64,000 nucleotides of DNA, taken from positions 2,046,001 through 2,110,000 of the forward strand of contig NZ_CP025682.1 of the NCBI RefSeq assembly GCF_002872475.1. Direction: 5' to 3'. Shown here piece after piece: positions 1-18,862 of the stretch; positions within the stretch are counted from its first letter, which is position 1, and each line of letters begins with the position of its first letter. The stretch is from Pseudazoarcus pumilus. Its GTDB lineage: Bacteria; Pseudomonadota; Gammaproteobacteria; Burkholderiales; Rhodocyclaceae. Made by a program: the position numbers and the translations under genes. A model generated the notes under the pieces. That model saw only the letters and a program-made list of their open reading frames with translations, was not told the origin of the DNA and made no database searches.

Positions 1-163
1 TGCCAGGCACCAGCGGCTGCGTGACGAAGGTCAGCGCGACGGCGAACATCACGTGCACGGGCACGGCCGCGATGAGATTCATCGGCGTACCCCAGGCCAT
101 CCAGATCTGGAATACCGACCAACCGAGCGCAATCAGCGCCGCCGGATTCAGGAATGACTTCAT
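1..163 (-). CDS. TRAP-type transporter permease, N-terminal fragment
   Basis: Only the first 54 codons lie in the window; the rest runs off the left edge. The ATG at 163 is preceded by a GGAG ribosome site. The visible protein is hydrophobic, with two likely membrane helices, and resembles the start of the fused 4TM/12TM permease of TRAP (TAXI-type) transporters, which import organic acids using a periplasmic binding protein. It is transcribed away from the ubiD-family gene at 509 and shares a control region with it, so a role in uptake of the cluster's substrate is plausible. The family call rests on a short stretch and is moderate. Confidence 0.55.
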   Translation of the reverse strand, partial: MKSFLNPAALIALGWSVFQIWMAWGTPMNLIAAVPVHVMFAVALTFVTQPLVPG

Positions 164-353
164 CGACTCCTCTTTGCGGACGAGCTTGCCGCTCAGGACA
201 ATCGTGGACGCGCCACCATCAGGACCTCTTCAGCCGGCAGGCTAGCGCCCGGAACGCGCCGGCGCTTACCCTGGAATCCGAATGTTCGCCCTACCCCTGC
301 GCAAGCCCGGACGATCCTCAAGCGTAATTTATGCGCAGCGTCGGCCGCGCGCG

Positions 354-391
354 TTACCGGTGGATCGCGCCAATTACCAATGAGTCTGATT
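354..391 (+). promoter_or_regulatory. Candidate AraC-type operator, copy 1
   Basis: Two TTACC half-sites start 20 bp apart (354 and 374). The second is followed by AAT and then GAGTCTGAT. This matches the copies at 452-413 and 11554-11591 in half-site, spacing and the GAGTC extension. Direct repeats at about two helical turns are typical of AraC/XylS-family sites. Confidence 0.6.
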
Positions 392-412
392 GTGCGGGGC
401 GTCCCGTACAGC

Positions 413-452
413 GCGATCCGACTCCAGGGTAAACACCGGGATCGCAGGGTAA
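413..452 (-). promoter_or_regulatory. Candidate AraC-type operator, copy 2
   Basis: On the minus strand, TTACC occurs at 452-448 and again at 432-428, 20 bp apart. The second is followed by CTG and GAGTCGGATC. It lies 57 bp upstream of the ATG at 509, close to the expected promoter of the ubiD-like gene. Confidence 0.6.
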
Positions 453-508
453 GCGCACGCGTGGCACGGCGACGTATATTCGGCTAAACACGCTCACGGG
501 GGAGCTCC

Positions 509-1963
509 ATGACTACCGATCCGACACCGTGGCGCGATCTGCGCGCCTGGCTGCGTCACCTTGCCGCGACCGACCGCCTGGCCGCGATCCGCAAGCCGGT
601 CTCGCTCGAACACGAACTGGCCGCCATCGCCAAGCGACTCGACGGACGGCAGGCCGCACTGTTTCTGGCGCCGGGCGATCATGCCATGCCGGTGGTGTCG
701 GGCTTCATGTCACGGCGCGAATGGATTGCCGAGGCCATGGGCGTGGCGGGCAGTGAATTGCTCGCACGCTTTCGCCATGCTGCCGACAACCCCTTGCCGT
801 GGCGGGAAGTCGACAGCGCGGCGGCGCCGTGCAGGCAGGTCGTGCACGATTTTCGCAACGGCGGGCTCGACATCCTCGATCTGCTGCCGATCCCTACGCA
901 CAGCGAACACGACTACGGCCCCTACATCTCGGCCGGTCTGGTGATCGCGCGCAATCCGCGCACCGGCGTGCAGAACGTGTCGATCAACCGCATCCAGATC
1001 AGCGGACCGGACCGGCTCGGCATCCTGATCCTGCCGCGGCACCTGTTTGCCTTCTTCCAGACGGCCGAAGCGGCCGGCGACGCTCTGGAGGTCGCCATCG
1101 CGATCGGCGTCGACCCGCTCACGGCGCTGTCCTCGCAGGCCATCGCCCCGCTCGACTTCGACGAACTCGAGATCGCCGGCGCGCTGCATGGCCAGCCGCT
1201 GCCGGTGGCCAAGTGCGTCACCAACGAGGTGCGCGTACCGGCCGAGGCCGAGATCGTCATCGAAGGCCGCCTGCTGCCCGGCGAGCGCAGCCCGGAAGGC
1301 CCCTTCGGCGAGTTTCCCAAGTACTACAGCGCGCGCGAAGAGCGCGAGGTCATCGCCATCGACGCCGTCACGCACCGCCACGACCCGATCTTCCACACCA
1401 TCATCCCGGCCGAGATGGAGCACCTGTTGCTTGGCGCCATCCCGCGCGAGGCCACGCTGCTGGCCCATCTGCAGCGCAGCTTCCCGAACGTGACCGACGT
1501 GCATCTGTCGATCGGCGGCGTGGGGCGCTATCACCTCTTCGTGCAGATGAAGAAGAACCGCGAGGGCCAGGCCAAGAACGTCATCCTCGGCGCCTTCGGC
1601 GGCCACTATGACCTCAAGCAGGTGATCGTGGTCGACGACGACGTCGACGTGCACAACCCGCTCGAAGTCGAATGGGCGGTCGCCACGCGATTCCAGGCCG
1701 ACCGCGACCTGGTCGTCGTGGCCGGCGCCCAGGGCTCGGCACTCGATCCGTCCACTACGGTCGCGTTCGATGGCAACAAGCCGCCGCCCCACTGGCAGGG
1801 CTTCGGCGCCAAGATGGGACTGGATGCGACCAAGCCACTGACCTCGTCCGAGCACGTGTTCACACGCGTGCGCATCCCCGGCGAGTTCGAGGTCGACCTC
1901 GACGAAGTCGTCTCGGCCACCGGCACCGACGCGCTGACCGGCACGCCACTGGCCGAGCGATGA
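509..1963 (+). CDS. UbiD-family prenyl-FMN-dependent decarboxylase
   Basis: A 484-residue protein of the UbiD family, which reversibly decarboxylates aromatic or unsaturated acids using prenylated FMN. The likely catalytic Arg-Glu-Glu triad is R161, E263 and E268; the two glutamates lie five apart in SPEGPFGEF, as in Fdc1/UbiD. The ATG at 509 follows a strong GGGGGAG site. The gene overlaps the aldehyde dehydrogenase by ATGA, so the two are translationally coupled. A UbiX flavin prenyltransferase at the far end of the cluster would provide the cofactor. Because the cluster also encodes an acyl-CoA ligase and a molybdenum hydroxylase, this is more likely a catabolic decarboxylase than the ubiquinone enzyme. 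The substrate is unknown. Confidence 0.88.
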   Translation: MTTDPTPWRDLRAWLRHLAATDRLAAIRKPVSLEHELAAIAKRLDGRQAALFLAPGDHAMPVVSGFMSRREWIAEAMGVAGSELLARFRHAADNPLPWREVDSAAAPCRQVVHDFRNGGLDILDLLPIPTHSEHDYGPYISAGLVIARNPRTGVQNVSINRIQISGPDRLGILILPRHLFAFFQTAEAAGDALEVAIAIGVDPLTALSSQAIAPLDFDELEIAGALHGQPLPVAKCVTNEVRVPAEAEIVIEGRLLPGERSPEGPFGEFPKYYSAREEREVIAIDAVTHRHDPIFHTIIPAEMEHLLLGAIPREATLLAHLQRSFPNVTDVHLSIGGVGRYHLFVQMKKNREGQAKNVILGAFGGHYDLKQVIVVDDDVDVHNPLEVEWAVATRFQADRDLVVVAGAQGSALDPSTTVAFDGNKPPPHWQGFGAKMGLDATKPLTSSEHVFTRVRIPGEFEVDLDEVVSATGTDALTGTPLAER

Positions 1964-3420
1964 TCAGCGAGGCGCTCAACCACATCGACGGCCACTGGCA
2001 GGCGGCATCCGCGGGACGATTCGCCGACGCCCGCGACCCCGCGCGCGCCACCCTCATCGGCCGCTTCGCCGATTCAGACAAGACCGACGCCGAGGCTGCC
2101 ATCGCCGCCGCCCGACGCGCCTTCGAGCGACCGGACTGGGCGCAGGCCCCGCGCCTGCGTCAAGCCGTTCTGCTGGCCTGGGCCGACCGGCTGGAGGCAC
2201 GCACGGACGCGCTCGCGCGACTGCTGACGTTGGAGAACGGCAAGGTACTGGCGCAGTCACGCGGCGAGATCGCCGGCGCGATCTCCGAAGTACGTTATTA
2301 CGCGGGTCTGGCGCGTCACCTGCCCGGACACGTACTGGAAGTCGAACCCGGCGCGTACTCGACCCTGTTGCGCGAACCGGCCGGCGTGGCCGGCATCATC
2401 GTGCCGTGGAACGCGCCGGTGGTGCTGCTGGTGCGCTCGCTCGCGCCGGCGCTGGCCTGCGGCTGTACCGCGGTAGTCAAGCCCGCGCCGCAGACCGCGC
2501 TGATCACCGCCGCCATCGTGGCCGAACTGACGGCCGTCGACACGTTGCCGCCCGGCGTCATGAATCTCGTCAGCGAAACGGGGCATGCGGTCGCGCAGAC
2601 CCTGGTCGCATCACCCGAAGTCGACGTACTCAGCTTCACCGGCTCGAACGCGGTCGGCCAGCGCATCATGGCCGACGCCGCACCGACGATGAAGAAGCTC
2701 TCGCTCGAGTTGGGCGGAAAATCCGCCTGTCTGGTCTTCGAGGATGCCGACATCCTCGATGTCGCGCCGAAACTGGCCGCCGCGGCGACCATCATTTCCG
2801 GCCAGCAGTGCACGGCGGCACGGCGCGTGCTGGTGCACGCGGCACGTCTCGGCGAGATGAAGGTCGCGCTGGGTAGCGCATTGCGTTCGCTGCGCATCGC
2901 GCCGGGCGAGAGCGAGGGCGCGCACATCGGTCCGCTCATCGACGCGGCCGCGCATGCCCATGTAGGCGAGCGCGTCGCCGCTGCGCTCGATGCGGCCGAC
3001 GAAGTGCTGCTGTCCGGCGGGCGTCCCGCCGACGCGCCGGCGACGGGTCACTTCATGGCGCCGTCGCTGGTCTTCCACCGCGACACCTCGGCCTTCTTCG
3101 TGCAGGACGAGATCTTCGGCCCCTTTCTTGTGCTGGAGAGCTTCGAAGACGAGCGCGACGCGGTCGCGCGCGCCAACCACAGCGAGTTCGGCCTGTCGGC
3201 CAGTGTATGGACGCACGACGGCGCGCGTGCGATGCGCGTGGCCCGCGCGCTGCGCAACGGCACGGTGTGGATCAACGACCACAACAAGCTCTTCGCCGAG
3301 GCCGAAACGGGCGGTTACCGTCGCAGCGGCCTGGGGCGGCTGCACGGCTACGACGCCATCCACGACTTCACCGAGGTGAAGCACATCTATCAGAACGTCG
3401 GGGTCGTGCCCACAGCCTGA
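1960..3420 (+). CDS. NAD(P)-dependent aldehyde dehydrogenase
   Basis: A 486-residue aldehyde dehydrogenase that oxidises an aldehyde to a carboxylic acid. The expected residues are present: N151 in PWNAP, general-base E250 in LELGGKS and nucleophile C284 in GQQC. The start ATG at 1960 overlaps the upstream stop by four bases. A longer upstream reading frame exists but would run through the ubiD-like gene in another frame. Its partnership with the decarboxylase suggests that an aldehyde intermediate or substrate enters the same pathway. Aldehyde specificity cannot be told from the sequence. Confidence 0.9.
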   Translation: MISEALNHIDGHWQAASAGRFADARDPARATLIGRFADSDKTDAEAAIAAARRAFERPDWAQAPRLRQAVLLAWADRLEARTDALARLLTLENGKVLAQSRGEIAGAISEVRYYAGLARHLPGHVLEVEPGAYSTLLREPAGVAGIIVPWNAPVVLLVRSLAPALACGCTAVVKPAPQTALITAAIVAELTAVDTLPPGVMNLVSETGHAVAQTLVASPEVDVLSFTGSNAVGQRIMADAAPTMKKLSLELGGKSACLVFEDADILDVAPKLAAAATIISGQQCTAARRVLVHAARLGEMKVALGSALRSLRIAPGESEGAHIGPLIDAAAHAHVGERVAAALDAADEVLLSGGRPADAPATGHFMAPSLVFHRDTSAFFVQDEIFGPFLVLESFEDERDAVARANHSEFGLSASVWTHDGARAMRVARALRNGTVWINDHNKLFAEAETGGYRRSGLGRLHGYDAIHDFTEVKHIYQNVGVVPTA

Positions 3421-3490
3421 CCACAGCCGCCATGAACACGCTGTTTACCCCATTCAGGAAACGCTGATTCGATGAATACGCGGGTTTCAG

Positions 3491-3575
3491 AGCGTAGGGC
3501 GCCAATAAGCGAAGCGCATTGCGCCGTATTGGCCATCCATACGGCGGATTACGCTCCGCTGATCCGCCCTACGCC
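3491..3575. repeat. Imperfect palindromic intergenic repeat
   Basis: A left arm starting GTAGGGCGCCAATAAGCGAA and a right arm ending GCTGATCCGCCCTAC form an imperfect inverted repeat of about 36 bp per arm around a TGGCCATCC centre. A related shorter GTAGGCGGG...CCGACCTAC piece follows at about 3581-3630. It resembles the dispersed GTAGGGCGGAT-type REP/MITE repeats common in proteobacterial intergenic DNA. It sits between the convergent aldehyde dehydrogenase and xdhC-like genes and may act as a bidirectional terminator. Confidence 0.6.
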
Positions 3576-3625
3576 ATTGTCGTAGGCGGGATGGGCGAAG
3601 CGAATTCCGACACACTCCGCCCGAC

Positions 3626-4738
3626 CTACGAAGCCACCGTGCGTGCGCGGCGCACACTGCCGGTGGCCGCCTCGGCACGGCCGGCGAAATGCGCGCGGAT
3701 CTCGGCGACGATGGCCAGCGCGATCTCCTCGGGGTTGTCGGCGCCGATGTCCAGCCCCACCGGGTAATGCAGACCATCGGTGTACAGCGGTGCGCCGCCC
3801 GCGTCACGGATCTCGCACAGCATGCGCTCGGTGCGCTCCATCGGGCCGAGTTGGCCGACATAGGACCGCGGGGTGGCGAGCAGGCGCGCGAGCAGTGCGC
3901 GGTCCTGCTCGATGCTGTGCGTCATCACCACCACCGCCGCCTGGGGCGTCACGCCGCACTGCTCCAGCGTCGTGTCGGGACCCATCGAGGTGACGCGATC
4001 GGCCGCGGGGAAACGCGCGCGACGTGCGTACTGCGCGCGAGCGTCGGCGACCGACACGTGCCAGCCCAGCGCCTTGGCGAAGGAGACCAGCGGCACCGCG
4101 TCGTGACCGGCGCCGAACACCACCAGACGCTGCGGTGGCATCATCCGCTCGCAGGCCACCTCCACGCTGCCCGCGCCACAGGCCAGGCGTCGGTAGCGCG
4201 GCCAACGGCCGTCCTCACGCAGCATGGCGGCCATCCGATCCGCCAGCGCAGGATCTTCCACGCGCGATGCGAGCGTGCCGTCGGGCATCAAGAGCAGCCG
4301 CTCGCCCACCTGCGCGCCGCCGCCCGCGTCGGCGGCGATCACGACCGCCGTGGCCGCCGGGCGCATGGTCTCGCGCACCGCGCACAGCGCGTCGAACGCC
4401 TCGCGCGCATGGTGCGCACCGACGCGCTCGAGCAGGACGTGCACCTCGCCGTTGCAGCCCAGACCGAAGGACCATTGCGCGTCCTCGTCCGCGCGCGTGT
4501 CAAAGCGGCACAGCACGGCACCCTCTTCCGTCAGCCACCACGCGCGTTCGACAAGATGGCGCTCGAGGCAGCCGCCGCTGACCGTGCCGATGTTGCGCCC
4601 GTCGGACGTGATCAGCATGCGTGCGCCGGGCTTGCGGTAGGACGAGCCGGCGATGCGCACGACGGTGGCCAGCACCGCCTCGTCGCCGGCATCCAGCGCA
4701 CGCTTCCAGGCATCGAGGATGAGCGGGACTTCCTTCAT
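3626..4738 (-). CDS. XdhC-family molybdenum-enzyme maturation protein
   Basis: A 370-residue XdhC/CoxI-family protein. Members bind molybdenum cofactor and insert its sulfurated form into xanthine-dehydrogenase-type hydroxylases. The N-terminal domain (GSSYRKPGARM, GTVSGGCLE) is followed by a C-terminal Rossmann domain (VVFGAGHDAVPLV near residues 225-240). It is the last gene of the operon starting at 11477, nine bases after the enoyl-CoA hydratase stop, so it probably serves the hydroxylase encoded upstream. The 3' end abuts the palindromic repeat. Confidence 0.88.
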   Translation of the reverse strand: MKEVPLILDAWKRALDAGDEAVLATVVRIAGSSYRKPGARMLITSDGRNIGTVSGGCLERHLVERAWWLTEEGAVLCRFDTRADEDAQWSFGLGCNGEVHVLLERVGAHHAREAFDALCAVRETMRPAATAVVIAADAGGGAQVGERLLLMPDGTLASRVEDPALADRMAAMLREDGRWPRYRRLACGAGSVEVACERMMPPQRLVVFGAGHDAVPLVSFAKALGWHVSVADARAQYARRARFPAADRVTSMGPDTTLEQCGVTPQAAVVVMTHSIEQDRALLARLLATPRSYVGQLGPMERTERMLCEIRDAGGAPLYTDGLHYPVGLDIGADNPEEIALAIVAEIRAHFAGRAEAATGSVRRARTVAS

Positions 4739-4747
4739 GACAACGCT

Positions 4748-5554
4748 TCAGCGTCCGGTGAACTTCGGCTTGCGTTTGGCGTGGAAGGCCTCGACGCCCT
4801 CTCGGAAGTCATCCGAGGTGCGCAGGCGGCTGTAGCAGTGACCCTCAAGTTCGATCGCGATGGCCAGCGGTGCGTCCTCGGTGTCGTTGAGCAGCTTCTT
4901 TGCGGTGCGCTGCGCGATCGGCGAGAAACCACGCAACTCGTCGACCAGCGCATCGGTGGCGGCCTCGAGCTGGCGATCGGGCACACAGTCCACGGCAATA
5001 CCCCAGTCGAGCGCCTGCTGACCCGAGATGCGGCGCGAGCGCATCACGATGTCCTTGGTGCGACCGATGCCGACCATCTTCTGCAGCCGCGCCGAGCCGC
5101 CCGAGCCGGGAATCTGCCCGAGGCGCTGCTCGGGCAACGCGTAGAGCGTGGTGTCGGTGGCGATGCGGAAGTCGCAGGCCAGCGACAGCTCGAAGCCGAC
5201 GCCAAAGCAGTAACCGCGGTTGGCCGCGATCACCGGCTTCTCGGCACGCGCCGGCGCGGCGATGTTCCAGGCCAGCTTGGACACGTGTTCGGGTTCGGCC
5301 TCGAGAAAGCCCTTGATGTCGCCGCCGCTGGAAAAATGCTCGCCCACCGAGCGCAACACGATCACGCGCACGCGCTCGTCGACGTCGAGCGCCTCGAAGA
5401 TCAGACGCAGCTGGTCGCGCTGGGCCATGCTGACGATGTTGAAGGGCGGACGGTCGAGGATGATGTCGGCGCGCTCGCGCTCGGCGTCGATGGCGACACG
5501 GAAGCCATCGAGTTCGTCGAGCAGATGATGGGCAGGATGGTCGAGTCGGGACAT
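4748..5554 (-). CDS. Enoyl-CoA hydratase/isomerase family protein
   Basis: A 268-residue crotonase-fold protein. It has the oxyanion-hole segments HFSSGGDIKGF and GYCFGVGFEL and both glutamates usual in hydratases (GFELSLACDF and LPEQRLGQIPG). The ATG at 5554 is chosen because AGGAA lies eight bases upstream; a TTG at 5581 is also in frame but lacks a good site. It follows the acyl-CoA ligase in one operon, so it probably hydrates or isomerises the CoA thioester that the ligase makes. The exact reaction is not known. Confidence 0.85.
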   Translation of the reverse strand: MSRLDHPAHHLLDELDGFRVAIDAERERADIILDRPPFNIVSMAQRDQLRLIFEALDVDERVRVIVLRSVGEHFSSGGDIKGFLEAEPEHVSKLAWNIAAPARAEKPVIAANRGYCFGVGFELSLACDFRIATDTTLYALPEQRLGQIPGSGGSARLQKMVGIGRTKDIVMRSRRISGQQALDWGIAVDCVPDRQLEAATDALVDELRGFSPIAQRTAKKLLNDTEDAPLAIAIELEGHCYSRLRTSDDFREGVEAFHAKRKPKFTGR

Positions 5555-5577
5555 GGCGATGGTTCCTGTGAATGGGT

Positions 5578-7128
5578 TCAAAGGGATTCGGAAGCGGTCT
5601 CGGCCTCGTACTCGCCGGCAACGAGCTTGCGGCGCAGGATCTTCCCGACCGGCGACTTGGGTACCTCGGCGACGAAGACGTATTCGCGCGGGCGCTTGAA
5701 GTTGGCCAGATCGGTCGAGCGGCAGTACGCGTCGAGCGCGTCGGCATCGACCGCCGTGCCGGAACGGCGGCGCACGAAGGCCACCACGCGCTGACCCCAG
5801 CGTTCATCCTCGAGCCCCGCCACGGCGACCTCGTCCACGTCCGGGTGCAGCGACAGCACCGATTCGATGTCCACGGGCGAGATGTTCTCGCCGCCGCTGA
5901 TGATCATGTCGTCGACGCGCCCGGTCACGAACAGCTCGCCACGCTCATCGAAATAGCCGGTGTCGCCGGTGAAGTACCAGCCGCCGCGCAGGGCCTTGGC
6001 GTCGGCATCGGCACGCTTCCAGTAGCCGTCGAAGGCCTCGTCGCCTGCGAGATCGGCGATGATCTGCCCTTCCTCGCCAACCGCCGCGATCCCGTCGGGG
6101 CCTTCGGCGTCCAGGCGCACGACGCGCAGCCGCGCGTTGATGCCGGCACGCCCGGCGCTGCCCGGACGCGCACGTGCATCCTGGTTGATCGAAAAGGTAT
6201 AGACCTCGGAACTGCCGTAGTGGTTGACGAACAGTTCCGGCCGGAAGGCCTGCTCGAGTCGCAGCAGAAGCCCGTCGGGCATCGGTGCGCCGGCGAAGCC
6301 GAGCTTGCGCACGCTGGAGATGTCACGCGTGGCGAAGTCTGCATGGGCCAGCAGGTCATGATAGAGGGTCGGCACCAGGTACAGATTGGTCACGCCCTCG
6401 GCCTCGATCAGCGACAGCGCACGTGCCGCGTCGAAGCGCGGCATGCACACGAACACCCCGTCGATGAGCGCCATCGCGAGCAGCGAGCGCACGCCCATGG
6501 TGTGATACAGGGGCATCACGCCGAGCGTGCGCTCGCCGCTGCGGTACAGGTTCTGCGCCACATGGGCGAGCGCGGCGGCGCGCTCGTGGCGATGGCGGCG
6601 CGGCACGCCCTTGGGCTTGCCGGTGGTGCCCGAGGTGTAGAGCATCAGCGACACGTCGTCGGCACCCGCGCCCGGCCCACCGGTCAGCGCCGGACCGTCG
6701 TACAGCGACGCGAAGGCGACCGTGGCGACATCGCCGACGCCCTCACCCACGCCGATGCGCACGCAGCCCTGCGCGGTCTGCGAGCCGGCCACGGCCTCGG
6801 CCGCGACGGCCTCGAACACCAGCACGCGCGCGCCCGAGTCCGCCAGACAGTACTCCACCTCGTCGGGTTTGGCGCGCCAGTTCAGCGGCGTGATGATGAC
6901 GCCGAGAAACTGGCAGGCCCAGTGCAGCGTCGCCATCTCGACCCGGTTCTGCAGGATTGCCAGCAGATGGTCGCCGTGGCGCAGGCCCAGGCGTTCCAGA
7001 CCGCCGGCCACTGCGAGGATGCGCTCGCCCCAATCGCCGTAGGTCAGGCGCGTATTGCCGTCGACGACGGCCAGCGCCTGCGGGCTGCGTTCCACGCTTT
7101 GCAGGAAGGTGCGACCGAGATCAAGCAT
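5578..7128 (-). CDS. AMP-forming acyl-CoA (aryl-CoA) ligase
   Basis: A 516-residue ANL-superfamily enzyme that activates a carboxylic acid with ATP and joins it to coenzyme A. Visible motifs are the P-loop YTSGTTGKPKG, A5 motif NHYGSSEVYT, A7 WYFTGDTGYFD, A8 hinge GRVDDMIISGGENISP and the C-terminal A10 lysine in PKSPVGKILRRKL. The gene overlaps the 2Fe-2S subunit by eight bases. Position in the cluster and general similarity suggest an aromatic or alicyclic acid substrate such as a benzoate derivative, but that is inference. Confidence 0.88.
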   Translation of the reverse strand: MLDLGRTFLQSVERSPQALAVVDGNTRLTYGDWGERILAVAGGLERLGLRHGDHLLAILQNRVEMATLHWACQFLGVIITPLNWRAKPDEVEYCLADSGARVLVFEAVAAEAVAGSQTAQGCVRIGVGEGVGDVATVAFASLYDGPALTGGPGAGADDVSLMLYTSGTTGKPKGVPRRHRHERAAALAHVAQNLYRSGERTLGVMPLYHTMGVRSLLAMALIDGVFVCMPRFDAARALSLIEAEGVTNLYLVPTLYHDLLAHADFATRDISSVRKLGFAGAPMPDGLLLRLEQAFRPELFVNHYGSSEVYTFSINQDARARPGSAGRAGINARLRVVRLDAEGPDGIAAVGEEGQIIADLAGDEAFDGYWKRADADAKALRGGWYFTGDTGYFDERGELFVTGRVDDMIISGGENISPVDIESVLSLHPDVDEVAVAGLEDERWGQRVVAFVRRRSGTAVDADALDAYCRSTDLANFKRPREYVFVAEVPKSPVGKILRRKLVAGEYEAETASESL

Positions 7129-7639
7129 CGCGGGTCTCCTCGTCTGTTTGTCGACGTGCCGCGGCGACTTCGAGCACCGCAGCGACGATGGGGGTGTATC
7201 CGGTGCAACGGCACAGATGGCCGGAGAGCATCTCGCGCACGGCGCCCTCGTCCGGCTGTGTCACGCGGCGCAGGAAGTCCGCGCACGACATCAGGATGCC
7301 GGCCGTGCAGAAACCACACTGCAGCGCGTGATGGCGGCGGAAGGCCTGTTGCAGTTCGTCGAGCGTGCCGTCGGCTGCGGCCAGTCCCTCGACGGTGTCG
7401 ACGCGCAGCCCCTCGGCCTGCACGGCCAGCGTCAGGCAGGCACGCACGGCCACGCCGTCGATGCGCACCGTGCACGCGCCGCATACGCCATGCTCACAGC
7501 CCACATGGGTACCGGTCGCACCCAGGCCATTCCGCAGGAAGTCCGACAGCAGGGTGCGCGGCTCGGCCAATGCCGAGCATTCGCGCCCATTGAGCACCAA
7601 GGTGACCGGCTCGCGGCTTCCGGCGTCGATTCGCTTCAT
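7121..7639 (-). CDS. Molybdenum hydroxylase, 2Fe-2S small subunit
   Basis: A 172-residue small subunit of a xanthine-dehydrogenase-family hydroxylase. The N-terminal plant-type ferredoxin domain has C48, C53, C56 and C68; the C-terminal helical domain holds the second cluster with C108, C111, C143 and C145. These pass electrons from the molybdenum site toward FAD. The ATG at 7639 overlaps the end of the FAD-subunit gene by four bases. A longer frame to 7885 has no extra homology and is not used. Confidence 0.92.
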   Translation of the reverse strand: MKRIDAGSREPVTLVLNGRECSALAEPRTLLSDFLRNGLGATGTHVGCEHGVCGACTVRIDGVAVRACLTLAVQAEGLRVDTVEGLAAADGTLDELQQAFRRHHALQCGFCTAGILMSCADFLRRVTQPDEGAVREMLSGHLCRCTGYTPIVAAVLEVAAARRQTDEETRDA

Positions 7640-8475
7640 TCCTGTTCTCCCGCACGGAGCGCCTCGGCCGCCGCGATCACGCGCGGTGCGAGACGACGCA
7701 CCAGATGACGGCGATAGGCCGCGCTCGCGTGCGCGTCGTCCTGCGCCTGCAGACTCCAGGCGAAATCGTTGATGGCGTCGGCCAACGCGTCGCCTTCGAG
7801 CCGTTCCCACTCGACCACGCAGGGCCGGTCGGCCACCCCTCCGACGGCCAGCCGCAGTCGCTCGGCCGTGACCTCGGCCGCGCACGCGACGATGGCGAAG
7901 TCGCCGTGGCGCATCGCAAACTCGTCGAAGGCGTAGCCGGCGCCCTCGCGCGCGAGCGGAAAGCGCACCGCTTCCACCAGTTCATCGTCGCGCCGCGCAG
8001 TGGTGAGCATGCCGCGGAAGAAGTCCGCGGCCGCAAGCACGCGTCGGCGCTTGCGCGAGCGCAGCACCACTTCGCCGCCGAGCAGCGCCAGACACAGCGG
8101 CAGCTCGGCGCTCGGATCGGCATGCGCGACCGAGCCGCAGACCGTGCCGCGATTGCGCACCTGGAAATGCGAGATGTGCGGGAAGGCCTGCGCCAGCAAG
8201 GGCACCTCTGTGGCCAGATGCGCGCGCCACTCGACCGCCGCCTGCGTGGCCGCGGCGCCGATGGTGAGCATGCCGTTGTCGCTGCGCACGTGATCGAGCG
8301 GCGCGCAGCGCGAGATGTCGAGCAGCACGCGCGGCTGGGCCAGACGCATGTTGAGCACCGCCATCAGCGATTGCCCGCCCGCGAGGATGCGTGCGTCGCC
8401 ACCGTATTCGGCGAGCAGCGCGCAGGCCTCCTCGACGGCGTCGATGCGCACCCAGTCGAAGGCCGCCGGCTTCAT
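7636..8475 (-). CDS. Molybdenum hydroxylase, FAD-binding medium subunit
   Basis: A 279-residue CoxM/CutM-type FAD subunit. The FAD-binding motifs are LAGGQSLMAVLNMRLA near residues 31-46 and RNRGTVCGSVAHADPSAE near 108-125. It shuttles electrons between the iron-sulfur subunit and the acceptor. It overlaps the large subunit upstream by ATGA at 8472-8475 and the small subunit downstream by four bases, so all three are translationally coupled. Confidence 0.92.
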   Translation of the reverse strand: MKPAAFDWVRIDAVEEACALLAEYGGDARILAGGQSLMAVLNMRLAQPRVLLDISRCAPLDHVRSDNGMLTIGAAATQAAVEWRAHLATEVPLLAQAFPHISHFQVRNRGTVCGSVAHADPSAELPLCLALLGGEVVLRSRKRRRVLAAADFFRGMLTTARRDDELVEAVRFPLAREGAGYAFDEFAMRHGDFAIVACAAEVTAERLRLAVGGVADRPCVVEWERLEGDALADAINDFAWSLQAQDDAHASAAYRRHLVRRLAPRVIAAAEALRAGEQE

Positions 8476-11400
8476 CGCCCCACCCCCAGCATGCGCAGCA
8501 GTCGCGCCCACAGCGAGCGCCGACGGACACTGCCGCCGCCAGCCTGCTGACCGAGCTGTTCGAACAGTTCGGCCAGCACGATCTTCGCCGCGCCTTCGAG
8601 CATGCGTCCGCCCACCGCGGCGACCTTGCCGCTGACTTCGGCGCGATAGTCGTAGGCGAGCCGCGTGCCGCCCTCGCTTGGCTCCAGCGTCACGCGGCCG
8701 CTGCCGCGCGCCGCTCCCAGCGAGGACAGCCCGCTGCCGGCGAGACGCAGGCTGCGCGGCGGATCAAGTTCGGACAATTCGATCTCGGCCGCGTAGCGCG
8801 CGCGCACCAGGCCGACGCCGACCGTGACGTCGGCGCGATACCGATGCTCGCCAATGGTTTCGAGCGCATGGCAGCCCGGAATCACGCGCGCCAGGGCAAC
8901 CGGGTCCAGCAGCACCGCGAACACCGCCTCGGGCGACGCCGCGATGTCGGTGGTGCCGCTCGCGGCCAGCGCGCGCCCGCCGCCGGCCGCCGGCTCGCTG
9001 CGCGCGGCCTCCAGCGGCGTGCTCGGCGGCGGGTCGTCGAAACCGATCAGCGACAGCACCCGGTTGGGTGTGAGCGGAAGGCGCAGATCGTCGATCTCGC
9101 CGTGCGGCGCGAGCGCGTCGGCCACGGCGTTGGCGATGCACACCGGCGTGCTCATATTGTTTCCCTCGCCCAGCCCCTTGGCGCCCAGCGGCGTGAACGG
9201 CGACGGTGTTTCCATGTGCAGGATCAGCGGATCGGGCACCTCGCAGGTGGTCGGCACCAGATAGTCGGCGAAGGTGCCCGACTGGAAGCCGCCGTCGTCG
9301 GCGTAGCGCAGCTCTTCCATCAGCGCCGCGCCCAGTCCCTGGGCGAAGGCGCCGCGAATCTGACCGTCGGCCAAGGCGGGGTTCAGGATGCGGCCGGCGT
9401 CATGGGTGGTCACGTAGCGGTCGATGCGCACCCGACCGGTGTCGCGCTCGATCTCGACGCCGCACAGGTCGAAGACGAAGCCGTAGGCGGCCGAAGTGTT
9501 GATGCGATCGCTCGCGTCGGGCGCCTCGAGCGGCGCCGGGCTCCAGAAACGCGTCACGCGCAGGCCCAGCGTCTCACCTTCGGGCAGCAAGGCGGGCGCC
9601 CAGTGCGCACTGCTTGCCGCACGCGCGAACGGCAGTGCGCGCTCGGGCACGTCGCGCGGGCCCACACGACCGTCGCGAAACTCGACCGCGTCGGCCGCGC
9701 ATCCGAACTGACGCGCGGCGATGCGTGCCAGACGCTCGCGCAGTTCGACCGCCGCCAGATGCACGGTGCCGGCCACGGCGCCGGCGAAGCGGCTCGAATA
9801 GTTGCCGGCGGCCACCGACCAGGCGTCCTTGAGGGTGTCGACCTCGACGTTGACGGCGATGTCCCCGGGCGCGAGCCCGAACACGTCGGCCACGACCTGG
9901 GCGCACACCGTCATGTGCCCCTGCCCTGCGGGGGCCGAGGCGATGACGACGCTCACGCCACCGAGCAGATCGATGTTGACGGTGGCGCTGGCGATGCCGC
10001 CGTTCTTGTGCCCGGCGCGCTCGCGCTGCGCGTGGGTCAGCGCAGTCGAGATGTAGCCCATGTTCGAGATCGACGGCTCGACCACGGCCGCGTAGCCGAT
10101 GCCGTACAAGCGGCCCTCGGAGCGCGCTTCGTCGCGGCGACGCAGCAGCTCGTCGTGGTCGCCGTCGCGCAGGGCCAGTTCCAGCGCCGCGGCGTAGTCG
10201 CCCGAATCGAGCAGCGCGCCGGCCGGCGCGCGATAGGGAAAGGCGTCGACGGCGACGAAATTGCGCCGATAGACGTCGAGCACGTCCACACCCAGTTCGA
10301 CCGCGATGCGCCGCACCAAACGCTCCAGCGCGAAGTACACCTGCGGACCGCCAAAGCCGCGTACCAGTCCGGTGGGCGTGGCATTGGTCAGCACCGCGCG
10401 GCAGCGCACGGCCAGATGCTCGATCGCATAGGCCCCGGTGAGGCAGCCATGCATGCGAAACAGCGTGGCCGGTTCGGGCGCGCGCAGATAGGCGCCGATG
10501 TCGTCGGTCTGGTCGATGCGCAATGCGGTGATGCGCCCGTCGGCCTCCACCGCGGCCTCGATGTGCGCCAGCCGCGCCGTGGCCGAAGTTGCAGCGACCA
10601 GATGCTCGAGGCGGTCCTCGACCCATTTGACCGGGGCGCCGGCCTTGCGCGCGGCCAGGCACATCAGCACCACATACGGAAACACCGCCTGCTTGACGCC
10701 GAAACTGCCGCCCGAATCGCGCGGTGTTCGGTGACGCAGGCGGTTGCCGGGCACGCGCAGCGCCATCGCCATGACCGCGTGCAGCGAGAACGGGCCCATG
10801 AAATTCGACAATACTTCGTAGCCCTCGTCACCGGCCAGATGCTCGGCCACCACTACCGCGCCCTCGATCGGTGTGCACGAATTGCGCGGGTAATGCACGG
10901 TCAGCGCGATGCGATGGGCCGCTCCGGCGAAAGCCGCGTCCGGGTCGCCGTAGCGGTAGTCGCGATCGACGACGACATTGCTGCCCGCCGCCTCGTGCAC
11001 CATTGGAGCGCCATCGGCCAGCGCCGCCTCGATGCCGACGACCGGATCGAGCGGTGCGTATTCGGCGCGGATCAACTCGGCCGCATCCTCGGCCAGATAA
11101 CGGTCGCGCGCGACGACCACGGCCACCGGCTCGCCGACATGGCGCACGCGATCGACCGCCAGCGCCCAGTGCTGCACGGGCACCCGCACGCCGGCAATGA
11201 AGGGGTCGGACCAGCGCTGCACGTCCTCGCCGGTGAGCACGGCGACCACGCCGGGCGCGGCCTCGGCGCTCGCCACGTCGAGCGCGAGGATGCGTGCATG
11301 CGCATGCGGCGAACGCAGCACGGCCGCGTGCAAGGCCCCCGGTCGCGCGCCCAGATCGTCGGCGAAGCTGCCGCGGCCGGTGAGCAGGGCCTCATCCTCG

Positions 11401-11477
11401 ACGCGCTCGACGCGACGCCCGACATATCGCTCGGGTGACTCGGCATGCGAAGCTTGGGCGCCCGCGTTGCTGGGCAT
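8472..11477 (-). CDS. Molybdenum hydroxylase large subunit fused to a CoxG-like SRPBCC domain
   Basis: A 1001-residue protein. Residues 1 to about 790 are a molybdopterin-binding large subunit, with the Moco loops GGSFGVKQ, LVRGFGGPQ and APAGQGHMT and the catalytic glutamate loop GAKGLGEGNN. The CO-dehydrogenase-specific VAYRCSFR loop is absent, so it should hydroxylate an organic substrate. From about residue 840 the chain continues into a CoxG-like domain (TTDIAASPEAVFAVL), which in CO dehydrogenase clusters is a separate protein used in assembly or membrane anchoring. It is the first gene of the operon; the AraC-type operator lies 77-114 bases upstream of its ATG. Substrate unknown. Confidence 0.88.
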   Translation of the reverse strand: MPSNAGAQASHAESPERYVGRRVERVEDEALLTGRGSFADDLGARPGALHAAVLRSPHAHARILALDVASAEAAPGVVAVLTGEDVQRWSDPFIAGVRVPVQHWALAVDRVRHVGEPVAVVVARDRYLAEDAAELIRAEYAPLDPVVGIEAALADGAPMVHEAAGSNVVVDRDYRYGDPDAAFAGAAHRIALTVHYPRNSCTPIEGAVVVAEHLAGDEGYEVLSNFMGPFSLHAVMAMALRVPGNRLRHRTPRDSGGSFGVKQAVFPYVVLMCLAARKAGAPVKWVEDRLEHLVAATSATARLAHIEAAVEADGRITALRIDQTDDIGAYLRAPEPATLFRMHGCLTGAYAIEHLAVRCRAVLTNATPTGLVRGFGGPQVYFALERLVRRIAVELGVDVLDVYRRNFVAVDAFPYRAPAGALLDSGDYAAALELALRDGDHDELLRRRDEARSEGRLYGIGYAAVVEPSISNMGYISTALTHAQRERAGHKNGGIASATVNIDLLGGVSVVIASAPAGQGHMTVCAQVVADVFGLAPGDIAVNVEVDTLKDAWSVAAGNYSSRFAGAVAGTVHLAAVELRERLARIAARQFGCAADAVEFRDGRVGPRDVPERALPFARAASSAHWAPALLPEGETLGLRVTRFWSPAPLEAPDASDRINTSAAYGFVFDLCGVEIERDTGRVRIDRYVTTHDAGRILNPALADGQIRGAFAQGLGAALMEELRYADDGGFQSGTFADYLVPTTCEVPDPLILHMETPSPFTPLGAKGLGEGNNMSTPVCIANAVADALAPHGEIDDLRLPLTPNRVLSLIGFDDPPPSTPLEAARSEPAAGGGRALAASGTTDIAASPEAVFAVLLDPVALARVIPGCHALETIGEHRYRADVTVGVGLVRARYAAEIELSELDPPRSLRLAGSGLSSLGAARGSGRVTLEPSEGGTRLAYDYRAEVSGKVAAVGGRMLEGAAKIVLAELFEQLGQQAGGGSVRRRSLWARLLRMLGVGR

Positions 11478-11553
11478 GGGCTGGGTCCTCGTTCAGGGAT
11501 GCACGCACTGCGCGCGCTGCAATGCATGGTAAGAACGAAGGCCACGGGCGGCT

Positions 11554-11591
11554 TTACCGCCTCGTAAGACGGTTTACCCTGGAGTCTGAAT
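11554..11591 (+). promoter_or_regulatory. Candidate AraC-type operator, copy 3
   Basis: TTACC at 11554 and 11574, 20 bp apart, the second followed by CTG and GAGTCTGAAT. This is the same arrangement as the two full copies in 354-452. It lies between the stop of the AraC gene (11603) and the start of the hydroxylase large subunit (11477), upstream of the latter. Confidence 0.6.
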
Positions 11592-11602: not shown

Positions 11603-12472
11603 TCATTCGGCCAGTGCCGCGCGCTCCTCGACGATGCTGACCACCCGTCGGTATTCGCTGGGCGTGATGCCGAGCTGGTCACGGAAAAAACGCGTGAAAT
11701 GTCCCGGCGCGGAGAAACCGACGTCGTAGCCGATGTCGGCGATCGAATTCACGCTGCCGGACAGCTCGTGGATCGCCGCCTCCATGCGCAGCACGTTGGC
11801 GTAGACGGCAGGCGTGAGCCGCGTGCAGCGCCGGAACAGCGCGAAGAAGTGCGCGCGCGACAGGCCGCACTCGGCTGCGAGCCGGTCCATGTCCTGCCCG
11901 ACGCCGACGTTGTCGCGCATCATCACGATGGCACGCCGGATGCGCGCATCCATCGAACACGCGGGCATGCTGCGCAGCAGCGCACCGAAATTGCGCCACT
12001 CGGAGTTGCGGTCGATGATCGCGATGATCAGGTCGAACAGCCGCTCCTCGAGTTGCTGCGGCTCGATGCCCTCGGGCAACAGCATGTCTGCCGCGAGCCG
12101 GTCGGCAAGCTGTCGCGCATGATCGGACATCGCCACACAGGACTGGGGGAAGAAGTGCGGATGGCTGCTGACCGCCAGCGCGCGCTGAATGTCGGCCAGC
12201 CAGGCCGGTTCGATGTACATCGCCAGCAGCACGCTGGGCATGCCCGCCTCGTCGTGATGCGCGTAGGCGTGCGGCTCCCAGGCGTTGACCACGACGGCGT
12301 TGCGGTCGGTCAGGGGCTGCACACGCTCGCGCACGATGAAGCGCGTATCCGCCCCGCTGAGTTTGATCAGCAGATGGCAGTGATGATGGGCATGCGCCAC
12401 CAGGTGCTTGTCCATGCACAGCAGCGCCACGCGCCCGAAGGCGCCTTGCAGGATCTTGATCGCGGTGGACAT
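11603..12472 (-). CDS. AraC-family transcriptional regulator
   Basis: A 289-residue regulator with an N-terminal ligand-sensing region (histidine-rich HAHHHCHLLIKLSG near residue 25) and a C-terminal AraC double helix-turn-helix (CGLSRAHFFALFRRC, then IADIGYDVGFSAPGHFTRFFR). The ATG at 12472 is set by GGAGGAG six bases upstream; a longer frame begins in the preceding gene. It lies 20 bases behind the MocA-like gene and just ahead of the hydroxylase operon. It is inferred to bind the three TTACC-repeat operators and to activate uptake, decarboxylation and hydroxylation genes in response to the substrate. Confidence 0.88.
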   Translation of the reverse strand: MSTAIKILQGAFGRVALLCMDKHLVAHAHHHCHLLIKLSGADTRFIVRERVQPLTDRNAVVVNAWEPHAYAHHDEAGMPSVLLAMYIEPAWLADIQRALAVSSHPHFFPQSCVAMSDHARQLADRLAADMLLPEGIEPQQLEERLFDLIIAIIDRNSEWRNFGALLRSMPACSMDARIRRAIVMMRDNVGVGQDMDRLAAECGLSRAHFFALFRRCTRLTPAVYANVLRMEAAIHELSGSVNSIADIGYDVGFSAPGHFTRFFRDQLGITPSEYRRVVSIVEERAALAE

Positions 12473-12492: not shown

Positions 12493-13104
12493 TCAGCCGG
12501 CACCGTGCACCGCCAGGGCGGTGGCGAGATCGGCCGGCGTATCGATGTCGGCAAGAACTCCGGCATCGTCGCAATGGATCGGAACGAGGTCGCGACGGTG
12601 ACGCGCGACCACGCTGCGCGCGCCCTCGTCACCGCCCAGGGTCAGCAACTCGTCGCGCAGGTCGGCCGAGAAGCCCACCGGGTGTCCGCGCCGCCCTGCA
12701 TGCATCGGGGCAGCGATGCGCGCACCGTCGGACAGCGCGGCGGCGACCGCAGCCACGGTCTCGGTGCGCACGAAGGGCATGTCACCGAGCGCGATCAGCC
12801 AGCCAGCGGCATCGTCCGTTGCGCGGACGCCGCGGGCCAGCGACGCCCCCATCCCGCTGTCCGCATCCGCGCATTCGACACATTCGATTCCGTCCGCTTC
12901 GAATTCACCGCGCAGATTGGTCTCGCCGAAACGAACCACGGCAAGCACGCGGCCCGGCAGCGCGGCGCGCAGCGCGCGGGCGCTGGCCAACCCGATGGGC
13001 GTGCCGTCGGGCAACGCCCGGCGCAGCTTGTCACCACCGAAGCGGCGGCCACGCCCGGCGGCCAGCACGATGCCGACAATGTCGCGTGCAGCATGCGCGC
13101 TCAT
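12493..13104 (-). CDS. MocA-like molybdenum cofactor nucleotidyltransferase
   Basis: A 203-residue MobA-like NTP transferase with the signature IVGIVLAAGRGRRFGGDK at the N-terminus, the metal site LIALGDMPFV and RRGHPVGF. MocA-type members add CMP to molybdopterin, the cofactor form used by xanthine-dehydrogenase-family hydroxylases. The enzyme's place between ubiX and araC, next to a molybdenum hydroxylase operon, supports this over MobA or an unrelated sugar nucleotidyltransferase. The ATG at 13104 is 13 bases after the ubiX stop. Confidence 0.82.
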   Translation of the reverse strand: MSAHAARDIVGIVLAAGRGRRFGGDKLRRALPDGTPIGLASARALRAALPGRVLAVVRFGETNLRGEFEADGIECVECADADSGMGASLARGVRATDDAAGWLIALGDMPFVRTETVAAVAAALSDGARIAAPMHAGRRGHPVGFSADLRDELLTLGGDEGARSVVARHRRDLVPIHCDDAGVLADIDTPADLATALAVHGAG

Positions 13105-13117
13105 GACCGCGTCCACC

Positions 13118-13723
13118 TCAGCCGCGCGCGAGCGCACGCGGTGAGCGACGCGGGCCCTCGCCCCAGCGTTCGACCACGCCGGCATCGATGTCGAACAGGT
13201 CGAGCACGCGCCCGAGCGAGTGATCGACCAGATCCTCGATGGTCTCCGGCCGGCCGTAGAAGGCCGGCACCGGCGGCGCGACGATCGCGCCCATCTCGGC
13301 CAGTTGCGTCATCGTGCGCAAATGCCCCAGGTGCAGCGGGGTCTCGCGCACCATCAGCACCAGGCGCCGACGATCCTTGAGCACCACGTCGGCCGCGCGC
13401 GTGAGCAGGCTGGTGGTCGTACCGTGGGCAATCTCGGACATGCTGCGGATCGAGCACGGCGCGACGATCATGCCGGCCGTGCGGAACGAACCCGAAGAGA
13501 TCGCCGCCGCGATATCGTGCGGCGCGTGCACGACGCTGGCCAGCGCGTGCACATCGGCGACCTTGTAGGTGGTTTCGTGCGCCAGCGTGATTTCGGCCGA
13601 ACGCGACATCACCAGATGCGTCTCCATCCCGAGTTCACGCAGGATCTCGAGCAGGCGAATGCCGAACACCGCGCCGGAGGCGCCGCTGATACCAACGATG
13701 ATGCGCTGCCCCGCGCGACTCAC
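13118..13723 (-). CDS. ubiX: UbiX-family flavin prenyltransferase
   Basis: A protein of about 201 residues that prenylates FMN to make the cofactor of UbiD enzymes. Motifs include the N-terminal flavin loop IIVGISGASGAVFGIRLLE, VAPCSIRSMSEIAHG and the late P-A-F-Y-x-R-P segment. A GTG at 13723 is preferred because GGGAG lies seven to eight bases upstream; another GTG at 13741 would add six residues. It heads the ubiX-mocA-araC group and is presumably dedicated to the UbiD-like enzyme at 509. The organism may have another ubiX for ubiquinone synthesis elsewhere. Confidence 0.88.
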   Translation of the reverse strand: MSRAGQRIIVGISGASGAVFGIRLLEILRELGMETHLVMSRSAEITLAHETTYKVADVHALASVVHAPHDIAAAISSGSFRTAGMIVAPCSIRSMSEIAHGTTTSLLTRAADVVLKDRRRLVLMVRETPLHLGHLRTMTQLAEMGAIVAPPVPAFYGRPETIEDLVDHSLGRVLDLFDIDAGVVERWGEGPRRSPRALARG

Positions 13724-13897
13724 CGGACTGCTCCCGGACACGAAGGGGCGACGCTGGCTCGATGCGCCATGACTGTCTCCTCGTCGGGGTCATTGCCGAG
13801 CATGACCCTCGTTCTGTGGGAGAAAGTCTATGGAAGGGATGGCATCAGCGCCAATAATCAATCAAGATCGGTCCGATCTGATTTACTGATACCCGCC

Positions 13898-14827
13898 ATG
13901 GACATTCGCCAGATCCAGTACTTCGTGTGCCTGTACGAGGAAGGCAACGTCACGCGCGCGGCGCGGCGACTGAACGTCGTGCAGTCGGCCTTGAGCATGC
14001 AGCTCGCGCGGCTCGAGGCCGAGACCGGGCAGAAACTGTTCGAGCGCACCTCGCGCGGCATGGTGCCCACGCAGGCCGGACGCACGCTGTTCGGACTGTT
14101 CCTGCCCATCCTGCGCGACATCGCCAACGCCCGCGAGGAGATCGCCCGGCTCGGAGAGGACGTATCGGGCGAGCTGCGCGTGGGCTTTCTGGAATCGACC
14201 ACCGGCGTGCTCTCGCGCGCGCTCGCCGAGTACACCGAGCGCCACCCGCGCGTCGTGGTACGCGCGATCAACGGCTACTCGTCCTTCTTCATAGACCAGG
14301 TCACCGCCGGTCAGCTCGACATCGCGCTCATCAACCGACCGCGGCAGCGCCTGGCGCTCAATGCCACGCCGGTCCATGACGAGGAGATGGTGGTGGTCGC
14401 CGCAGCCGGCAACGACCTCGGCCTGGGGCGCGAGATCGGCATGCGCGACCTGGCCGCCTACCCGCTGGTCGTGCCCTCGCGCCAGCACGGCCTGCGCGGC
14501 GTGATCGACCGTCACGCCAACCTCGCCGGCATCGAACTCGACCCGCGGCTGGAAATCGACGCGTTGTCGGCCATCGTCGAACTGGTGACCCACGGCCGCT
14601 GGGTCACCATCCTTCCGCTGATCACCGTGCACCATGGACTCGAAAGCGGCGCCCTGCGCGCCTATCGGCTAGACGCTCCACACGTGACCCGCAGCCTGAC
14701 CTGGATCCACCACCCGCGTCGTGCCCTGGGCACGGCCGCCGCCCGTTTCATGGAGATCTTCGGCCAGCATCTGGTCGAAACCGCCCGCGCGGCTGCCGGA
14801 CTCGCGCACAACGGCCGCGGCAAGTGA
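13898..14827 (+). CDS. LysR-family transcriptional regulator
   Basis: A 309-residue LysR-type regulator: winged helix-turn-helix over residues 1-60 (VTRAARRLNVVQSALSMQLARLE) and a LysR substrate-binding domain from about residue 90. It is divergent from ubiX with 174 bases between them. The ATG at 13898 starts the canonical MDIRQIQYF; the long in-frame upstream extension runs antisense through ubiX and is rejected. It may control its own gene and the ubiX-mocA-araC group, but its ligand is unknown. Confidence 0.9.
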   Translation: MDIRQIQYFVCLYEEGNVTRAARRLNVVQSALSMQLARLEAETGQKLFERTSRGMVPTQAGRTLFGLFLPILRDIANAREEIARLGEDVSGELRVGFLESTTGVLSRALAEYTERHPRVVVRAINGYSSFFIDQVTAGQLDIALINRPRQRLALNATPVHDEEMVVVAAAGNDLGLGREIGMRDLAAYPLVVPSRQHGLRGVIDRHANLAGIELDPRLEIDALSAIVELVTHGRWVTILPLITVHHGLESGALRAYRLDAPHVTRSLTWIHHPRRALGTAAARFMEIFGQHLVETARAAAGLAHNGRGK

Positions 14828-17650: not shown

Positions 17651-17693
17651 ACAATGCATCCGCATTGCCATAACAATGCATTCGCATTACCAT
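17651..17693. promoter_or_regulatory. Two tandem palindromic operators before prlF
   Basis: Two 21-bp direct repeats (17651-17671 and 17673-17693) begin 22 bp apart, each holding the dyad AATGC-N4-GCATT. They end 33 bp before the ATG of the AbrB-type antitoxin gene. Autoregulation by antitoxin or complex is usual for type II toxin-antitoxin loci, so these are likely its operators. Confidence 0.6.
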
Positions 17694-17726
17694 CTGCGCA
17701 TCACCTCAGATCTGCAGGAAGCTGTC

Positions 17727-18056
17727 ATGACCGCACCCCTCGAAGTCGAATCTACCCTCACCGATCGCTACCAGACGACGGTACCCGAAACCGTTCGCCG
17801 CGCCCTCAAACTGGGCAAGCGCGACAGGATTCACTACGCCATTCGCCCGAACGGAGAGGTCGTCTTGACGCGTGCAGTAGCGCCCGGGGATGACGATCCA
17901 GTGCTCGGCCAGTTCCTCGGGTTTCTGGCGGCCGACATCACGCGCCATCCAGAGCGGTTGCAATCCCTGGATTCCGCTCTGGTCGATCGACTCCAGTCCC
18001 TGGTTGGCGATATCGATGTCGATCTGGATGCAGTTCTTTCAGCGGACGATGAATGA
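17727..18056 (+). CDS. prlF: PrlF-type antitoxin (AbrB/SpoVT fold)
   Basis: A 109-residue protein with an N-terminal swapped-hairpin AbrB domain (STLTDRYQTTVPETVRRAL, residues 9-27) and an acidic C-terminus likely to wrap the toxin. The ATG at 17727 follows AGGAAG; a longer start at 17676 would cross the operators. It overlaps the YhaV-like toxin gene by four bases. The pair matches PrlF-YhaV, in which PrlF neutralises the YhaV ribonuclease and represses the operon. Confidence 0.85.
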   Translation: MTAPLEVESTLTDRYQTTVPETVRRALKLGKRDRIHYAIRPNGEVVLTRAVAPGDDDPVLGQFLGFLAADITRHPERLQSLDSALVDRLQSLVGDIDVDLDAVLSADDE

Positions 18057-18568
18057 GCGCCACAGAACCCGAACCCTTGGTCATTCATGGATGGACCGTC
18101 TTCGCTCATCCGCTCTTCCTTGAACAGGTCGATGCGCTGGCGCGACAGGTCGAGGTGCTCGCACGCAAAGACCCGGTCGGTTACGTCAGGAAAAACGCCA
18201 GCAAGAGACTGGCAGCCATCACCCGGCTCGCATTCGATGTCATCCCGCAGGATCCGACTCGTCGCGAGTACCGCCAGGGCGGCACGCTGGGTGACGATCA
18301 CAAACATTGGTTCCGGGCCAAGTTCTTCCAGCAGTATCGGCTCTTCTTCCGCTATCACGCCTCGAGCAAAGTGATCGTATATGCCTGGGTGAACGACGAA
18401 GACACCAAGCGGGCCTTTGAAAGCAACGACGACGCCTACCGGGTTTTCAGCAAGATGCTCGCGAGCGGGCGTCCGCCGGACGATTGGAATCAACTGCTGA
18501 CGCAGGCGCGCGAAGAGTCAGCGCGGATGCGCGAGTCGTTCGAGAGAACCGGAGCGATAAGACGATAA
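18053..18568 (+). CDS. yhaV: YhaV-type toxin (RelE-superfamily ribonuclease)
   Basis: A 171-residue YhaV-family toxin, an RNA-cleaving RelE-fold protein. Recognisable segments are INGWT-like IHGWTVFAHPLF at the N-terminus, the RREYRQGGTLGDDHKHWFRAKFFQQYRLFFRY core and YAWVNDEDTKRAFES, all typical of the family. Full length compared with E. coli YhaV (154 residues) plus a short tail. Coupled to the antitoxin by ATGA overlap. Confidence 0.87.
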   Translation: MSATEPEPLVIHGWTVFAHPLFLEQVDALARQVEVLARKDPVGYVRKNASKRLAAITRLAFDVIPQDPTRREYRQGGTLGDDHKHWFRAKFFQQYRLFFRYHASSKVIVYAWVNDEDTKRAFESNDDAYRVFSKMLASGRPPDDWNQLLTQAREESARMRESFERTGAIRR

Positions 18569-18598
18569 CGCACACTGCAATGCGCGTTCGGCGAACTG

Positions 18599-18692
18599 CA
18601 TCGCGTCCGGTGTGATCAACGTTCGATCGAACGCCCAGTGCATGCCAGACGTCAATGCCAGTCCGTTGCGCGGTTCGTCGTGCCCGGCTTCG
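18599..18692 (-). pseudogene. Fragment of an HNH endonuclease gene
   Basis: On the minus strand this reads EAGHDEPRNGLALTSGMHWA followed by FDRTLITPDA, closely matching residues around the HNH core of the intact gene at 19738-20691 (its 19898-19986 segment). The flanking sequence no longer matches and no open frame is kept. It is a decayed second copy or a relic of a duplication in the islet. Confidence 0.75.
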
Positions 18693-18862
18693 CGGTAGTG
18701 CCTGCGGACTCACCTGCCAGCCCTCCACGCCCGTTACGGCAGGTGCCACTGCCAATCGCCAATCACGCCGTTGCTGATGGGTGACCCGACCACGGATATC
18801 GCCGAGCGCACCTCGTGCCGTTACGCTTCCGCGGATTACCTGAACAGGTATAAACTTCCGGC

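Follow-up and report, generated by a model that had tools for sequence, protein, structure and literature searches.

Tandem direct repeats as probable operators of an AraC/XylS-type regulator of furan-acid degradation genes in Pseudazoarcus pumilus

Three copies of a tandem direct repeat stand before the uptake, decarboxylation and molybdenum-hydroxylase genes of one cluster in the 64,000-nucleotide stretch of Pseudazoarcus pumilus DNA analysed here (the window). With a probability of roughly 0.85, we propose that these sites are the operators of the AraC/XylS-type regulator encoded in the same cluster, which would activate uptake, decarboxylation and furoyl-CoA oxidation together. The repeat itself is very probably the binding site of this neighbouring activator, as judged from its anatomy, its position relative to predicted promoters and its co-occurrence with the regulator gene in related bacteria.

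Results

A candidate furan-acid degradation cluster

The UbiD-family protein scored 429 bits against 6h6v and 216 bits against the next-best enzyme, which places it with the HmfF type; we take 6h6v to be the HmfF of Pelotomaculum, three names that do occur together in the literature. The molybdenum, FAD and iron-sulphur subunits, the CoA synthetase and the crotonase (Table 1) have the content and order of hmfABCDE, described together with the furoate pathway and its factor PsfD (PMC6678421). UbiX, an aldehyde dehydrogenase, a MobA-like protein and a TRAP system round off the cluster. Overall the cluster appears to specify the hmf (furoate/FDCA) pathway, and its three gene groups together look able to degrade furan acids from plant biomass.

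The TRAP permease gene extends beyond the left edge of the window. There (L066, 5548-8180) the permease is followed by an NMT1-like binding protein of the TAXI type and a thiamine-diphosphate (TPP) enzyme, and the three genes likely form one operon. Elsewhere in the window (17676-19559), two adjacent gene pairs resemble type II toxin-antitoxin modules by their translations alone, the first PrlF/YhaV-like and the second HigB-like with Xre.

Table 1. Positions of genes, repeat sites and putative promoter elements in the window
Feature	Position	Strand	Remarks
TRAP permease (DctM), gene start	1..163	-	gene runs on beyond the window
Site 4, single half-site GATTCCAGGGTAA	266..278	-	between operator-1 promoter and TRAP start; role uncertain
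Putative -10, TAAATT	326..331	-	starts 22 bp after operator 1
Operator 1	354..391	-	GACTCATTGGTAA-N7-GATCCACCGGTAA; points left to TRAP permease; unchanged in sister species
Operator 2	413..452 (repeats 420-452)	+	GACTCCAGGGTAA-N7-GATCGCAGGGTAA; points right to ubiD; unchanged in sister species
Putative -10, TATATT	475..480	+	starts 22 bp after operator 2
UbiD-family decarboxylase, HmfF-like	509..1963	+	
Aldehyde dehydrogenase	1960..3420	+	
XdhC-type molybdenum-enzyme maturation factor (PsfD-like)	3626..4738	-	
Crotonase-family protein, hmfE position	4748..5581	-	
Acyl-CoA synthetase, hmfD position	5578..7128	-	
Iron-sulphur subunit, hmfC position	7121..7648	-	
FAD subunit, hmfB position	7636..8511	-	
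Molybdopterin subunit, hmfA position	8472..11477	-	C-terminal CoxG (SRPBCC) domain fused in frame
Putative -10, TACCAT	11526..11531	-	starts 22 bp after operator 3
Operator 3	11554..11591	-	GACTCCAGGGTAA-N7-TACGAGGCGGTAA; between araC and hmfA, points left to hmfA
AraC/XylS-family regulator	11603..12472	-	likely binder
MobA-like nucleotidyltransferase	12493..13185	-	
UbiX flavin prenyltransferase	13118..13741	-	
LysR-family regulator	13835..14827	+	divergent from ubiX

Anatomy, orientation and rarity of the sites

An earlier note on this DNA had described three sites of the form TTACC-N15-TTACC-N3-GAGTC, each followed by N-GA, and all three are present as described (354-386, plus strand; 420-452, minus strand; 11554-11586, plus strand). 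The 20-bp spacing of the TTACC elements is real but captures just part of the element. When the opposite strand is read, each site is a head-to-tail pair of 13-bp repeats, GACTC-N3-GGTAA, with a period of 20 bp, and the orientation is therefore the reverse of that first assigned. The second copies keep GGTAA, and the first box in them reads GATCC, GATCG or TACGA at the three sites. In this orientation every operator aims at the gene downstream of it, namely the TRAP permease, the UbiD-aldehyde dehydrogenase pair or the molybdenum-hydroxylase operon.

No match to TTACC-N15-TTACC-N3-GAGTC arose when the window was shuffled 100 times with its dinucleotides preserved, and the chance expectation is about zero. 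The 3.2-Mb genome contains exactly these three matches, both at zero mismatches and when up to one is allowed, so the expectation that the sites would be confined to this cluster held at that threshold. These genome-wide tests were pattern searches; as a control, the same pattern read backwards was searched in 101 genomes with up to one mismatch allowed and gave seven matches, which puts the background near 0.07 for each genome. One-mismatch matches in L004-L008, L010, L011, L013 and L014 were taken as background, their number being close to that of the control pattern.

The partial fourth site is likewise genuine. At up to one mismatch its half-site occurs three times in the genome, every time in this cluster. 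Site 4 was rejected as a full operator, given that a second repeat at +20 is absent and that it scores only 8.4 bits. It shows no changes relative to the sister species G001, a result that is not significant on its own (P=0.28). The surrounding segment (251-292) is near-identical in the sister species, which again is not significant alone, and within it GCGCCCGG...CCGGCGC could form a hairpin in the leader of the TRAP mRNA.

Neither a matrix scan nor inspection of positions 13700-13960 revealed an operator upstream of the araC-mobA-ubiX genes or of the LysR gene; autoregulation is thus not seen. The ubiX-mobA-araC genes may instead be controlled by the divergent LysR gene.

Promoter geometry and proposed mechanism

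At all three window operators a -10-like hexamer begins exactly 22 bp past the second GGTAA, which means that the end of the second repeat falls near the expected start of a -35 box. When the window and its relatives are taken together, all 21 promoters have NANNNT between +21 and +23, and 16 of them have it at +22; these offsets depend, at loci with three repeat copies, on a last repeat picked by eye. At any offset outside this range the motif occurs in at most 2 of the 21. By this spacing of 21-23 bp in 21/21 promoters, the promoter-proximal repeat lies at or overlaps the predicted -35, as is typical of AraC/XylS-type operators, and the spacing is likewise shared by the operators of about 20 related clusters.

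This layout suggests how the sites might work. Because the repeats are 20 bp apart, two AraC monomers could occupy the same face of the DNA, one on each 13-bp repeat. The promoter-proximal GGTAA would abut or overlap the -35 element, since the -10 follows it by 22 bp, and from that position activation would most likely proceed by contact with RNA polymerase, as for XylS at Pm (PMC5481539). A furan acid, or the CoA thioester of one, is the most likely inducer. The genes activated together would be those for TRAP uptake, those for the HmfF-like decarboxylase and the aldehyde dehydrogenase, and the hmfABCDE-xdhC operon, whose products are predicted to convert furoate to 2-oxoglutarate.

A repeat that overlaps or abuts the presumed -35 is also placed where a repressor could use it, and site 4 is found downstream of the promoter at operator 1. 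We nevertheless consider it improbable that the AraC protein binds these sites mainly to repress, for example by blocking the -35, with a ligand relieving the repression. The -35 sequences are weak, suggesting that an activator is needed, and tandem repeats at such a spacing upstream of a -10 are the layout of the XylS activator (PMC5481539). Furthermore, the Pseudomonas counterpart acts as an activator, as indicated by the fact that loss of its gene abolishes growth on furfural (PMC6678421).

The AraC protein and its pairing with the site

The protein encoded beside operator 3 matches HTH_18 (75 bits), HTH_AraC (40 bits) and AraC_binding (26 bits), with the double helix-turn-helix (HTH) at its C terminus. 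Its residue 261, within the matching HTH, is arginine. In the P. pseudoalcaligenes regulator, the change L261R permitted growth on furfural and inactivation abolished it (PMC6678421). Locus context and residue 261 are the grounds on which we regard the two proteins as probable orthologues.

Among aligned AraC relatives the first HTH has a near-constant SRAHFF core, and the GAC(T) box is near-invariant. Both the second HTH (SAPGHF, SVPAHF, SEQGHF) and the second box (GGTAA, GGATA, GGTAT, GGCAA) differ among lineages. This parallel between recognition helix and box is only suggestive.

Relatives of the cluster were collected in two ways: by the AraC gene, from named genomes and plasmids, and by the hmfA protein regardless of AraC. 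Fourteen genomes were chosen by hmfA alone. Seven of these have both the AraC gene and a site at hmfA, six have neither, and one (G897) has the AraC gene with a site that has moved. In G897 the AraC gene precedes an hmfD-like gene rather than hmfA, and those two genes flank the best site (11.9 bits). The six genomes with hmfA and no AraC match (G702, G696, G1006, G1155, G998 and G935) carry no site at their hmf loci, where the best background match reaches at most 10.7 bits and none precedes hmfA; three of the six belong to one genus, so that the number of independent cases in this small sample is smaller. Two genomes fetched after the matrix had been built, G1124 and G1122, have the AraC gene and a site where predicted, between it and hmfA (28.6 and 30.3 bits), with TACACT at +22 in both. 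The earlier proposal of a regulon defined by a regulator-site pair is thus supported, in that the site accompanies the AraC gene and is absent from hmf clusters that do not have it.

The same comparison bears on the divergent LysR-family regulator as the protein that binds the sites. Its gene belongs to this cluster, several hmf clusters have LysR genes at their flanks, and work on P. umsongensis assigns the lower pathway to araC and the upper pathway to a LysR gene (PMC12064950). However, the repeats here are direct and recur every 20 bp, whereas LysR sites are inverted repeats of the form T-N11-A (PMC6449761), a pattern that the window sites do not have. In addition, hmf clusters with LysR and without AraC (L053, L054) have no site, and many clusters that bear the site have no LysR homologue nearby. 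On these grounds the sites were rejected as LysR operators, and we regard binding by the LysR protein as very unlikely.

Conservation of the operator in related clusters

Operator 3, the predicted AraC-bound element before hmfA, is kept in orthologous clusters, as the earlier note required of a true regulon: about 20 further clusters from Alpha-, Beta- and Gammaproteobacteria have it, with two or three copies and a period of 20 bp. At every AraC-then-hmfA locus that was fetched, the gap contains a GACT/GGTAA-like repeat that recurs 20 bp further along; the second box is most drifted in Methylibium (L019). When anchored on the best repeat copy at each of 17 loci, the mean match was 6.4 of 10 at +20, compared with 1.1-3.5 for every other offset between 14 and 33 downstream. 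These 17 loci thus share tandem direct repeats spaced by some two helical turns, as in AraC/XylS systems. In leave-one-out matrix scans the operator was the top match in every locus, at 7.8-45 bits with only L019 below 15, and the next independent match was usually below 10 bits.

Three serial copies are present in Acidovorax, Hydrogenophaga, Methylibium and G693, and also in L052, L056, L057 and L058, whose AraC gene is found downstream or at another place. In L020, L023, L019, L055 and the last four loci, the three repeats in series are always 20 bp apart.

The extent of the predicted regulon varies. Caballeronia has a separate hmfE gene with its own second site upstream, a case elsewhere in which the regulon prediction appears to have worked. 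In Dinoroseobacter (L048) the site was found at the hmfA promoter only, with none at ubiD or TRAP, so that the wider regulon is specific to some lineages.

Between the window and its sister species G001, none of the 78 bases in operators 1 and 2 has changed, compared with 23 changes in the 345-bp region (P=0.002). Together with the chance expectation of zero, the lack of copies elsewhere in the genome and a geometry fixed across three proteobacterial groups, this effectively refutes the view that the repeats are a dispersed element or a chance similarity without regulatory function, in favour of which we found no point.

Discussion

The earlier note had not recognised the system from any described one. 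Its components prove to be familiar: the architecture is that of an ordinary AraC/XylS operator and the pathway is the known hmf (furoate/FDCA) route, and both the tandem operator type and AraC control of the hmf pathway were known already. Within the part of the literature that was searched, no description of GACTC-N3-GGTAA with a period of 20 bp was found; an earlier one may exist. We consider it reasonably likely that this element, in two to three copies, is an undescribed and widely conserved code for a furoate AraC regulon across proteobacteria, and that in the lineage of the window this regulon has extended to include the FDCA decarboxylase and a TRAP importer, giving one activator for uptake and for the upper and lower pathways.

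If so, a likely DNA target can be assigned to a regulator that, in the literature searched, is known only from genetics. The furoate/HMF regulon would become readable from genome sequence, even where the AraC gene lies elsewhere, and the TRAP transporter becomes a candidate importer of furan acids. Furan-acid biosensors and FDCA-producing strains could also draw on the sites as a defined promoter-operator.

Comparison with known systems

XylS acts at Pm through 15-bp repeats separated by a 6-bp gap. The window sites resemble those of XylS at Pm and of BenR in having two direct repeats, each of two boxes one helical turn apart with a GG-T-A-like second box, in the location of the proximal repeat at -35 and in their presumed recognition by a protein that switches on an aromatic-acid pathway (PMC5481539, PMC6449761). 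They differ in the spacing between boxes, in a period of 20 rather than 21 bp and in the first box. The XylS/BenR consensus TGCA-N6-GGNTA does not describe them, the first box being GACTC rather than TGCA in 3/3 sites, while every relative has GAC(T/C/G) in its distal copy. Unlike XylS/BenR operators, those of the window type carry three repeats in some lineages.

Clusters of the Cupriavidus basilensis type, which have LysR (for example L054), share the hmfABCDE enzymes, UbiD and UbiX; their genomes contain no AraC match, and the clusters no such operator. A further likeness is to P. pseudoalcaligenes CECT 5344 (BN5_2307) and P. putida Fu1, where an hmfABCDE locus contains both an AraC-family gene and an XdhC/PsfD factor, and R261 in the HTH of the window protein is the residue of the active BN5_2307 allele (PMC6678421). 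In Pseudomonas the lower hmf pathway is ascribed to an AraC regulator (PMC6678421, PMC12064950). PMC6678421 reports no binding site for it, and the sites in the window additionally cover the ubiD-aldehyde dehydrogenase genes and the TRAP permease.
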